In this document: positions 35,313-38,322 of the stretch, one piece after another
Layout: every line of letters starts with the position of its first letter
Position numbering within the stretch: position 1 is the first letter of the stretch
DNA from: Oceanobacillus caeni
GTDB taxonomy: Bacteria; Bacillota; Bacilli; Bacillales; Amphibacillaceae
NCBI RefSeq assembly: GCF_019037185.1
Contig: NZ_JAHHXM010000007.1
Location: forward strand, 304 to 64,303
Direction: 5' to 3'
Length of the DNA: 64,000 nt
Made by a program: the position numbers and the translations under genes
The notes under the pieces: model-generated
The model's input: the letters and a program-made list of their open reading frames with translations, nothing else
The model's database searches: none
What the model was told of the DNA's origin: nothing

Positions 35313-36527
35313 TTATTCTAATTTAGATTTCACATACCCACTAATAAATACGAAACTAAACAATAACCCACCAATTAAAGCAATCACAAATCCTAAATAT
35401 TCTTGTGTTAATACAATAACAAGAGCAAAAAGAATCGTTTGAACAATACTTAATTGATATAAAATTTTCATGACGGCTCTTTTGCGCTCACTCATTTCAA
35501 CAGGATACAAATCTAACCATATATTCACTCGATGGTGATGATACAATGTCATCATTTGGAATGTACTTAAATATAAAAATAGGATGCTAAGAATAACCTT
35601 TAACCACATATTTGGGACAAAGAAAATGAATAATCCTCCAATTACGAGTAAACGGAAATACATCCCTATGTACTCTCCACTACGTACAAAAGTGATACGG
35701 TATAAGTAGTCATAACTATTTTTATTATGAAATGGAACAGAATTTGTAACCAATCGAACGAGCCACTGACGTTTTTTAACACGTACCTTTAAATGTGGCA
35801 CATCTGCAAACATATTAGCAAAACGATAAAATGCCTGTAAGCGATGTTGGTCTTTTTCGATTAATAATTCCCAGTTAATCCCTATTTGCTTTTTGGAATA
35901 ATAATAATCGTAGAGAAAGATGATAACAAAAATAAACGTCGTAATCCCTGCAAACATAACATCGCCACGTATTACAAAATAAAAAATGGTTATGTTTAAT
36001 ATGATACGGACGAAAGCATCCAATAATCGTATATTTTTATCTCTAACTTTTAGCATCCACCAATTTGCAAAAAGATTGCCTATTTTTATAATAAGTAAAA
36101 CGAGTAAAGTAAGTAGATAAATACTTCCAGTACGTTCCGGATAAGAAGCAAAAAATAAAGGACCTAAAGCAGCTGCTATAAGTAAAATTAAATATAGTTG
36201 AATCACGAAACTATAAATTAAAGTATTACGAAAATAAGCACTCATCTTATCTTCTGCAGTAATGATAAAAACAAGATCAGGTTCCTTTAATAACGTTCGT
36301 ACAGGACTATAGCTAGCAACTAAACCAAATAAAACTCCAATAACCAGAGCAGTTGGAAAGTTAGACGGTAAATCATCTAAAGCCTGCCGATAATAGACAG
36401 CTAAAGTAGAAATTAAAAAGAAAAGCACAATAACCATATGTCCATTTAAAATATAGCGTAAATATCTCCCTAATTCCTTTATATGGGCAGATAAACGCCT
36501 TTTATAAAACAAATGGGAATCAAACAT
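35313..36527 (-). CDS. ecsB: ABC transporter permease EcsB
   Basis: A 404-residue membrane protein with about ten helices, the permease of the Ecs ABC exporter. In B. subtilis loss of Ecs affects intramembrane protease RasP activity, secretion and competence. The start YKRRLSAHIKELGRYLRYILNGH and segment KDQHRLQAFYRFANMFADVPHLK near residue 225 are characteristic. It overlaps ecsA by 8 nt (ATGTTTGA). No ecsC is seen here. Confidence 0.9.
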   Translation of the reverse strand: MFDSHLFYKRRLSAHIKELGRYLRYILNGHMVIVLFFLISTLAVYYRQALDDLPSNFPTALVIGVLFGLVASYSPVRTLLKEPDLVFIITAEDKMSAYFRNTLIYSFVIQLYLILLIAAALGPLFFASYPERTGSIYLLTLLVLLIIKIGNLFANWWMLKVRDKNIRLLDAFVRIILNITIFYFVIRGDVMFAGITTFIFVIIFLYDYYYSKKQIGINWELLIEKDQHRLQAFYRFANMFADVPHLKVRVKKRQWLVRLVTNSVPFHNKNSYDYLYRITFVRSGEYIGMYFRLLVIGGLFIFFVPNMWLKVILSILFLYLSTFQMMTLYHHHRVNIWLDLYPVEMSERKRAVMKILYQLSIVQTILFALVIVLTQEYLGFVIALIGGLLFSFVFISGYVKSKLE

Positions 36528-37263
36528 GGCTATCTTCCTTTGTTAATTGAACATATAAATCATCTAAAGTTGCTTGAGGCATATTGAAATCGTCTCTTAA
36601 CTCGTCCAATGTACCTAAAGCACGAATCTTACCGTCATGCAAAATAACAAAACGATCACAATACCGTTCAGCAGTTGCTAAAATATGTGTAGACATTAAG
36701 ACACCTGCACCATTGTTTTTTACATCATTCATTAATTGTAAATAAGACTGTATTCCTAATGGGTCTAGTCCAACGAACGGCTCGTCGACAATATACAATG
36801 GAGGATTAATTAAGAATGCACACATAATCATTACTTTTTGACGCATCCCCTTTGAAAAATGAACAGGAAACCAATTTAGCTTTTTTTCCATACGAAATTC
36901 CTTTAGTAAAGGATCTAATCGTTCCTTAAAGATATCTTCACTAAGTCCGTATGCCATTGCAGTAAGTTGAAGGTGTTCATATAAAGTCAATTCATCATAA
37001 AGGATTGGCATTTCAGGAATATATGCGATTTGCTTTCGATAAGTTGTAGAACTTTCTTTAAATGTTTTTCCATTTACGACGATGTTCCCTTTTTTGGGTT
37101 GCATAAGTCCAATTACATGTTTAATGGTTGTACTTTTTCCTGCACCATTTAATCCAATTAACCCAACAATTTCTTTCGGCTTCACATCAAAGGAAATACC
37201 ATGAAGGACGTTTTTATGTGTATAACCACCATAAAGATTATCAATATGTAAAAGTGAATCCAA
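36520..37263 (-). CDS. ecsA: ABC transporter ATP-binding protein EcsA
   Basis: A 247-residue ATPase partner of EcsB. Walker A is GLNGAGKST near residue 38, the signature is HFSKGMRQKVM near 134, and Walker B is LYIVDEPFVGLDP near 155. The D-loop and switch histidine are in MSTHILATAERYCD. The signature FSKGM instead of LSGGQ is usual for this family. It heads the ecsAB operon, facing away from the intergenic RNA region. Confidence 0.93.
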   Translation of the reverse strand: MDSLLHIDNLYGGYTHKNVLHGISFDVKPKEIVGLIGLNGAGKSTTIKHVIGLMQPKKGNIVVNGKTFKESSTTYRKQIAYIPEMPILYDELTLYEHLQLTAMAYGLSEDIFKERLDPLLKEFRMEKKLNWFPVHFSKGMRQKVMIMCAFLINPPLYIVDEPFVGLDPLGIQSYLQLMNDVKNNGAGVLMSTHILATAERYCDRFVILHDGKIRALGTLDELRDDFNMPQATLDDLYVQLTKEDSHV

Positions 37264-37426
37264 ATCATTTCCTCCTCTTCATTACCCTTGATTTTATCAC
37301 GTTTAGCAAGCTTTTCCAAAACAAACTGTCATTAAAATTTCGACACGAAAATAGGGTTTTATTTTTTTAAAGAAATATTTTTAATTTGTTGTATATAAAA
37401 TAAGAAACAAGTACAGAATAGGTAGT

Positions 37427-37790
37427 GAAGAAACAGGATGCAGCAAACACTTAACCAAGTGTGAATCACAAATGAGGTGTTAGTGATCGAGTTACTAATA
37501 TAGATTTTGTGTATATTAAAAAACACAAATGAGGTGTTAGTGAACGATAATCTACTCTGAATTTGAGACTAATTTACACACAAATGAGGTGTTGGTGTTG
37601 GCGATTCTAATGTAGAAAACCCTTTTGCCAGATATCGTCTCATTATATGAGGCTTTGACAAAAAGGTTTTTGTAAACAGTTAAATTACGATTTAACAAGT
37701 TTACTGTCCCCACTCATTAGGTTTACCATCCTGTTTCTTCAAATAATAGGTCTAGCTCGTATATATACGGGTTGGGCCTATTTCTTTTTC
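37427..37790 (+). ncRNA. Candidate structured non-coding RNA between ecsA and hit
   Basis: No ORF with a ribosome-binding site fits here. GAAGAAACAGGATG (37427-37440) is fully complementary to CATCCTGTTTCTTC (37727-37740), closing a 314-nt domain. Inside are a hairpin ACACTT/AAGTGT (37447-37462) and three hairpins with CAC/GTG stems showing the same 13-nt loop, AAATGAGGTGTTR, at 37467, 37524 and 37579. There is also a nested hairpin with AACC/GGTT arms around CTCAT/ATGAG, and a long hairpin GTAAAC-GTTAAAT / ATTTAAC-GTTTAC (37672-37701). An 18-bp terminator with several G-U pairs (37745-37782) followed by TTTCTTTTTC comes next. A TATAAA box near 37394 could be its -10. I cannot assign it to a known RNA class. 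Confidence 0.72.
37745..37790 (+). terminator. Intrinsic terminator of the candidate RNA
   Basis: AATAGGTCTAGCTCGTAT pairs over 18 positions, allowing G-U, with ATACGGGTTGGGCCTATT, followed by a TTTCTTTTT tract. It shows that transcription ends here on the plus strand, before hit. Confidence 0.8.
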
Positions 37791-37890: not shown

Positions 37891-38322
37891 ATGAATCATG
37901 AAGATTGTATTTTTTGTAAGATTATAAATGGTGATATTCCGTCTGCAAAAGTTTACGAAGATGAGCATGTGTATGCGTTTTTAGACATTTCTCAAGTTAC
38001 AAAAGGACATACATTAGTCATTCCAAAAACACATGTCAAAGATATTTTCGAAACACCACCCGAAGTAGCTAAAGAATTGTATGCGCGAATTCCAAAAGTA
38101 GCAAATGCTATAAAAGAAACATACCAACCACTTGGATTAAATACGTTAAACAACAACGGAGAAGCTGCTGAACAGTCTGTATTTCATTTACATATCCACC
38201 TTATCCCACGATATGGCGAAGGAGACGGCTATACACCAAATTGGACCGTTCACACCGATGACTATACTTCAGAAGATTTACAACAGATTGCTAAAGAAAT
38301 CGGACAAAACATCCAAAATTAG
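37891..38322 (+). CDS. hit: HIT family protein (Hit/YhaE)
   Basis: A 143-residue histidine-triad nucleotide hydrolase. It has the CIFCKIINGDIPSAKVYED start with a zinc CxxC and the triad HLHIHLIPR near residue 98. Such enzymes hydrolyse aminoacyl-AMP or AMP-lysine-type substrates. AGGAG lies 8 nt before the ATG at 37891, three codons after an upstream ATG. Gene order ecsA-hit is conserved with B. subtilis, but here the candidate RNA and a repeat fragment lie between. Confidence 0.92.
   Translation: MNHEDCIFCKIINGDIPSAKVYEDEHVYAFLDISQVTKGHTLVIPKTHVKDIFETPPEVAKELYARIPKVANAIKETYQPLGLNTLNNNGEAAEQSVFHLHIHLIPRYGEGDGYTPNWTVHTDDYTSEDLQQIAKEIGQNIQN

Follow-up and report, generated by a model that had tools for sequence, protein, structure and literature searches.

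The closest described counterpart of the RNA examined here is Bvs196 of B. velezensis, a 294-nt RNA from the gap between hit and ecsA. In the available part of its description, its promoter was shown to depend on sigma F and mainly on sigma G, its expression was reported to be forespore-specific, and its loss lowered the resistance of spores to heat and UV (PMC9147052). The same source proposed that nt 74-131 of the RNA act as antisense to spo0A and sspN-tlp (PMC9147052). The introduction of that paper names S357 as the homolog in B. subtilis, whereas its Discussion gives S547, apparently by a slip. As far as the excerpted texts go, ncr1670 has been placed in the hinT-ecsA gap (PMC3574147) and equated with S357 (PMC4410918), and S547 has been equated with CsfG (PMC8216469). 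Sporulation includes two translation-silencing events and yields mature spores packed with ribosomes, and the silencing mechanisms in spores are called not well understood in the portion of the source available (PMC11339384).

Here we compare these systems with a locus in the window, that is, the 64,000-nucleotide stretch of Oceanobacillus caeni DNA that was analysed. The locus and its forespore expression are already published for B. velezensis, and the modular build of the RNA appears to be new: in the accessible portions of the open-access literature on the locus, on the sRNA names and on structured-RNA surveys, no description of the modules M1 and M2 was found.

A predicted small RNA gene between ecsA and hit

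An earlier note on this DNA described a gene-free gap of 626 bp, and the sequence and open reading frame list of the window bear it out, with about 627 bp between ecsA and hit. The parts of the locus are listed below, where M1 denotes a repeated module of about 22 nt (AAAUGAGGUGU...AAAGAC) and P1 a long-range closing helix.

36520..37263, minus strand: ecsA, the divergent neighbour (open reading frame; name as in the earlier note and the literature on the gap)
37391..37395, plus strand: -35 element, GTATA, of a putative sigma-G-type promoter (sequence)
37414..37420, plus strand: -10 element, CAGAATA, of the same putative promoter, after an 18-nt spacer (sequence)
37427..37440, plus strand: 5' strand of closing helix P1, where the RNA is predicted to begin (covariation; own-pairing energy)
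37470..37491, plus strand: M1 copy 1, AAATGAGGTG core, start-codon slot ATC (sequence; module comparison)
37527..37548, plus strand: M1 copy 2, start-codon slot AAC (sequence; module comparison)
37582..37603, plus strand: M1 copy 3, slot TTG at 37598-37600 (slot comparison in loci of the window genus)
37618..37631, plus strand: 5' arm of an internal hairpin, AACCCTTTTGCCAG (92% of cells paired)
37655..37668, plus strand: 3' arm of that hairpin, TTGACAAAAAGGTT, pairing with 37618..37631
37672..37677, plus strand: 5' strand of a second internal helix, GTAAAC (paired in 93% of cells, with few changes)
37699..37704, plus strand: 3' arm of the second internal helix, GTTTAC, pairing with 37672..37677
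37727..37740, plus strand: 3' strand of closing helix P1 (covariation; own-pairing energy)
37745..37790, plus strand: terminator-like stem and T tract (terminator scan; 17-pair stem at 37745-37782)
37891..38322, plus strand: hit/hinT, the downstream neighbour (open reading frame, ATG at 37891)

An ecsA relative adjoins the RNA in the related loci examined, and a HIT-family relative was present in 119 of 121 class-level genomes. The sigma-G consensus is GYATR-N16..19-CATNNTA, to which the window promoter conforms at 9 of 10 positions when scored by hand; in relatives the -10 element reads CAAAATA, CATAATA, CATCATA and similar. Of 180 pooled gaps, 133 have a promoter scoring at least 9/10 before the first module, whereas dinucleotide shuffles reach that score in 5.2% of cases. 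From the promoter position, the transcript is predicted to start at about 37427, and reading the window sequence from promoter to terminator would give an RNA of about 364 nt (~37427-37790). The earlier note's terminator with a T tract is found again as the terminator-like 17-pair stem, and the terminator scan counted 1 in the window against 0.8 in shuffles, which is no excess. The sequence supports reading the gap as a structured RNA gene with predicted promoter and terminator signals of its own.

For comparison, 80 named loci were gathered with a HinT query, two of which were dropped with no ecsA in reach. The B. velezensis gap among them (L197) spans 493 bp and holds GCATA-N17-CATCATA, three M1 copies and a terminator-like stem; its RNA, read from promoter to terminator, measures 299 nt, against 294 nt as published, with M1 copies at nt 29, 146 and 205. 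Because locus, promoter, closing helix and M1 module are shared, the window RNA is very probably a forespore RNA of the Bvs196/S357 family and not an undescribed class. The earlier note had proposed an undescribed structured RNA; a structured RNA gene with its own signals it is, but one in the same gap as Bvs196 and S357/ncr1670.

We place the window RNA in this family by its position between hit/hinT and a divergent ecsA, as for Bvs196/S357, by the M1 repeats and the closing helix that it has in common with them (a criterion proposed here), and by a candidate sigma F/G-type promoter directly upstream, which matches at 9 of 10 scored positions. The window RNA falls outside the BLASTn ortholog rule of the Bvs196 paper (E <= 1e-10, coverage >= 75%, identity >= 50%; PMC9147052), and among the matches listed the best between the window gap and the 193 named and order-level gaps had an E value of 0.001 over 29 nt. 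Its likeness to Bvs196 lies in the same hit-ecsA gap with divergent ecsA, the sigma F/G-type promoter sequence and the three M1 copies. Bvs196 is an independent RNA of about 300 nt with a terminator, and for the window the sequence predicts a longer RNA, of about 364 nt, that would end at the terminator-like stem; the window RNA also has only short BLASTn matches to the named and order-level gaps. The available part of the Bvs196 paper describes conserved stems and variable loops and makes no mention of repeated modules (PMC9147052). S357/ncr1670 shares the hinT-ecsA gap, in which B. spizizenii, B. inaquosorum and B. tequilensis have three M1 copies; this module comparison rests on close relatives of B. 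subtilis, which itself lies outside the set of named loci. Modules likewise go unmentioned in the excerpts of the papers on this RNA (PMC3574147, PMC4410918).

With Rfam 15, a check suggested in the earlier note, no match at the gathering score was obtained in the window, nor in 20 diverse loci. Relaxing the limit to E <= 10 brought up nothing convincing: the lowest E value, 0.027, belonged to RF02634, which scored 20.3 bits where its gathering score is 100. The CsfG family RF00516, which had no match in the window, was found as a positive control in L026, elsewhere in this genome, where a CsfG relative lies at L026:2155-2312 adjoining rsmD; its Rfam entry is named 'ylbH leader' and is on the opposite strand.

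Modules M1 and M2 across genomes

The earlier note saw a 13-nt loop, AAATGAGGTGTT(A/G), repeated at 37470, 37527 and 37582 with spacings of 57 and 55 nt. A conserved, Shine-Dalgarno-like repeat is indeed present at these positions, but the conserved unit is larger, the loop being the core of the ~22-nt module M1. The 12-mer AAATGAGGTGTT occurs four times genome-wide and three times within this gap; the fourth exact copy (L001:1501-1512) lacks the rest of the module and looks like chance. Protein coding across the window repeats was rejected, the second spacing being 55 nt and the spacings varying by a few nt among relatives.

A BLASTn search using the region as query matched 19 of 58 genomes, its own included; the window genus, with 28 genomes in the set, accounts for 18 of these, and all the copies found in this way sit between ecsA and hit. 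The other ten window-genus genomes gave no BLASTn match. A single recognisable module copy is present in two of them, a third has a copy that looks decayed by eye in a gap swollen by repeats, and no RNA copy was found in six with gaps of 197 to 385 bp (L304, L306, L307, L308, L309 and L313) or in one with a gap of 1003 bp; one of the 25 loci of this follow-up was dropped with no ecsA in reach. By eye, the ecsA-hit gap seems to be enlarged by inserts resembling repeats in L303 (G023), the locus with the decayed-looking RNA, and in L007, L009, L016 and L021.

The module reaches much further than BLASTn. The order sample comprised 159 genomes, 158 with hit; loci were obtained from 137, and 21 were dropped without ecsA in reach, leaving 116 gaps. 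M1 occurred in 80 of these 116 gaps and in 30 of 41 families (80 of the 93 gaps that measure 400 bp or more). It was also present in 77 of the 78 named gaps and in all 19 gaps from BLASTn matches; M1 sites near the hit start had been removed for the counts 80/116, 77/78 and 19/19. M1 is thus kept at order level although the remaining RNA sequence no longer aligns. When the genus, order and named samples were pooled (some species occurring twice, as also in the pools of 180 and 237 gaps), the motif was found 509 times in 213 gaps, in 180 of the 190 gaps of at least 400 bp and in none of the 23 shorter ones, with one to eight copies per module-bearing gap. Over the 159 genomes, a strict M1 pattern gave 50 exact matches, spread over 36 of them, while the backwards control gave none, and by coordinate comparison 49 of the 50 adjoin hit or ecsA.

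The exception is a single-module copy in G226 (L298, complement, ~1697), which lies beside other genes, away from hit, with promoter-like and terminator-like sequence on its flanks by eye; the hit-ecsA gap of this genome, 156 bp, is empty. Because this copy sits away from hit, the RNA can move as a unit and need not be a cis element of hit. A cis-acting leader of hit would agree with the position of the RNA upstream of that gene on the same strand, and it is nonetheless hardly credible, given the terminator-like stem that precedes hit, the relocated copy in G226 and the 23 order-level genomes that have hit and a gap of less than 400 bp without the RNA.

A second module, M2 (AAGGGGAUGGUNNNN-UUG-AAC), was found as AAGGGGATGGTNNNNTTGAAC and near variants in 79 of 237 pooled gaps, against none on the opposite strand and none in shuffles; it was not found in the window or in 158 of the 237 gaps. 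Over 299 class-level genomes, the exact M2 pattern matched in five genomes, always beside hit, and the backwards control gave one match. The family thereby gains a sequence signature that finds its members where BLASTn fails, and an sRNA so far examined as an antisense regulator in one species becomes a family across Bacillales.

Modules within an array are usually about 50-70 nt apart. From M1 to M2 the distance is mostly 60-69 nt (59/81) and from M2 to M1 mostly 50-69 nt (79/92), while successive M1 copies lie 50-69 nt apart (137/263) or at about double that distance, 110-139 nt (75/263). An M2 followed by another M2 within 260 nt was never seen in the pooled gaps.

Folding of the RNA

The whole RNA is predicted to fold at -117.1 kcal/mol, against -79 ± 4.7 kcal/mol for 100 dinucleotide shuffles (z = -8.0), none of which equals it. 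The 14-bp perfect long-range pairing of the earlier note, between GAAGAAACAGGATG at 37427-37440 and 37727-37740, is well supported. In an alignment of 21 near relatives, 90% of the P1 cells are paired and 9 of 15 pairs show two-sided change, a covariation in related genomes that none of 500 shuffles reached. In a set of 90 non-redundant RNAs whose promoters score 8 or more, the energy of P1 is -19.6 kcal/mol for a strand with its own partner, -15.4 when partners are swapped between families and -14.6 when shuffled. The internal helices are well paired in the 21 relatives, with two-sided changes at or below the shuffle level.

The three hairpins said to present the repeated loop fared less evenly. 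The loop copies, their spacing and the complementarity of the small stems hold in the window, and in the 21 related RNAs the stems are paired in 79%, 84% and 54% of cells; as a set they show 9 cells with two-sided change against 3.9 when shuffled, above all 500 shuffles, yet a single pair in copy 1 accounts for 7 of these cells, and conservation of copy 3 is poor. Nor does the core behave as a display loop, its predicted unpaired probability being 0.31, against 0.38 with shuffled flanks (191 copies, 73 RNAs). Hairpin display loops were consequently rejected, since the small stems are not general and folding predictions do not leave the core open.

A mini-hairpin within M1 (UGUYU/AGAYA) was also rejected: it fits the columns, with no clear covariation at its pairs in 215 non-redundant copies. 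No local sequestration of the M1 core was seen either, the mean pairing energy being that of shuffles both upstream and downstream. CATTT is enriched upstream of M1 (68/225 against 17 expected), and an AAAUG/CAUUU hairpin may form in some M1 copies. A common module fold was not visible in the group alignments of six Bacillus subsets.

Shine-Dalgarno likeness and possible roles of the modules

Both M1 and M2 resemble a Shine-Dalgarno (SD) sequence. They were aligned by hand on the 16S tail from computed anti-SD duplexes; a search of this assembly did not find the genome's own 16S. At one shared C of the anti-SD, M1 places a G and M2 a mismatched A, and in both modules a trinucleotide slot, here called the start-codon slot, lies 8 nt downstream; a spacer of 7-9 nt is the optimum for Bacillus. 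Among 60 non-redundant M2 copies, collected regardless of slot sequence, the slot reads TTG in 50, ATG in 7, and GTG, TGT and AAA once each, which is a start codon in 58 of 60. Because no other leucine codon occurs in these copies, the slot is better read as a start codon than as a coded leucine.

The M1 slot is different, being AAA in 128 of 208 copies and a start codon in 8 (3.8%); as the background is 4.6%, active avoidance of a start codon is not supported. Copy 3 in the window genus carries TTG in 16 and ATG in one of the 17 loci having a third copy, and in the window the TTG is followed by GCG ATT CTA ATG TAG. In L022, from another genus, the third-copy slot is AAA. Read in frame with the M1 slot, the sequence reaches a stop earlier than in either of the other frames, with a median of 7 codons against 11 and 11.

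Functional mini-peptides could really start at M2 and, in the window genus, at copy 3, since M2 has an SD-like sequence, an 8-nt spacer and a start codon, and 77 of 81 distinct frames have 4 to 18 codons. We regard this as improbable: the frames compared by eye show no conservation past the second or third codon, those of copy 3 in the window genus have just 3 to 5 codons, and most M1 copies have no start codon in the slot.

On the strength of the shared start-codon slot 8 nt after the SD-like core, we tentatively propose that the RNA may be an array of decoy ribosome-binding sites holding 30S subunits in the forespore, a possibility to which we give less weight because the start-codon rate of M1 equals background. 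It is from this slot that binding of 16S tails, one of the partners suggested in the earlier note, becomes the favoured reading. Each module would act as a decoy: M1 would offer the 30S subunit an SD without a start codon, whereas M2 and, in the window genus, copy 3 would offer a weak UUG start that leads into a very short open frame. The spacing of the array would be wide enough for one 30S subunit per module, judging by ribosome footprints, and by holding small subunits in the forespore the array might help to silence translation as the spore matures. A wider form, a forespore-specific array across Bacillales that parks one 30S subunit per ~60-nt unit, most units having no start codon in the slot, and so helps to impose silence on translation in the maturing spore, seems to us doubtful. 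We know of no decoy ribosome-binding-site RNA of this kind. If the decoy proposal is true, the RNA would bear on how spores stop translation while their ribosomes stay ready for germination, and the most conserved parts of a forespore RNA would be mimics of ribosome-binding sites.

In favour of this proposal, 2.8% of shuffles pair with the anti-SD as well as M1 does. Several other results weigh against it. For M2, 38% of shuffles are as good. In the analyses of 213 gaps and 215 copies the search pattern itself dictates the M1 core; a separate analysis that frees its positions singly (190 non-redundant sites) shows mostly A-to-G changes at positions one, two, three and six and T-to-C at position four, which is T in 177 sites, C in 13 and never G, so that M1 does not complete the SD. 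Part of the M1 copies have TTG 3 nt or GTG 5 nt after GAGG, with start codons at 30% and 13%, respectively. The M1 core is not predicted to be exposed, and the published antisense region, nt 74-131, lies between M1 copies. Pairing of M1 and M2 with the rest of 16S or with 23S showed no excess (10 to 73% of 60 shuffles were as good).

An antisense sRNA of the usual kind, with spo0A, sspN-tlp and further mRNAs as targets and modules that are mainly structural, has experimental results from B. velezensis in its favour, namely in vitro binding, changed mRNA levels and changed spore resistance in the available text (PMC9147052). As the whole account of the RNA we consider it unlikely, because the published target sites lie between the M1 copies, in sequence that varies between families, while the modules are the part that is kept. 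Nor did the core have a clear conserved target, its complement ACACCTCATTT giving 47 off-locus matches against 37 for the backwards sequence in 15 genomes. Decoy and antisense action could both be true of one RNA.

A multi-site sponge, in which the array titrates an RNA-binding protein such as Hfq or another forespore protein, would account for some 20 nt conserved as sequence, repeated at rather regular spacing and with no clear covariation in the module. RsmY/RsmZ-type sponges of CsrA titrate their partner in this manner, through repeated short sites on one RNA, and the sites of CsrA are GGA in hairpin loops. The window RNA would work alike in outline, but GGA is missing from its M1 core, and a hairpin of that type was not seen. 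In the available part of an Hfq study of B. subtilis, ncr1670 was enriched 2.77-fold with the protein, an enrichment among the lowest of the table rows listed (PMC3574147). The sponge would leave UUG, AUG or GUG in 58 of 60 M2 slots unexplained, and we hold it to be rather unlikely.

The earlier note also suggested a C-rich small RNA as partner, and G-rich modules might indeed titrate CsfG, RoxS or FsrA. CsfG/S547 is likewise a forespore sRNA under sigma F/G control, according to the excerpts available (PMC8216469, PMC9147052), and has a relative in this genome, while its locus is a different one and its conserved stretches are C/U-rich. CsfG, the sole candidate tried, paired with M1 and M2 at the level of chance, 26 to 90% of shuffled modules being as good, and this kind of sponge is very improbable.

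The arrays also vary in size and number. Two complete RNAs are present in L010 and in L320, one genome having two in tandem, and the gaps of L141, L158 and L229 carry four to eight M1 copies.
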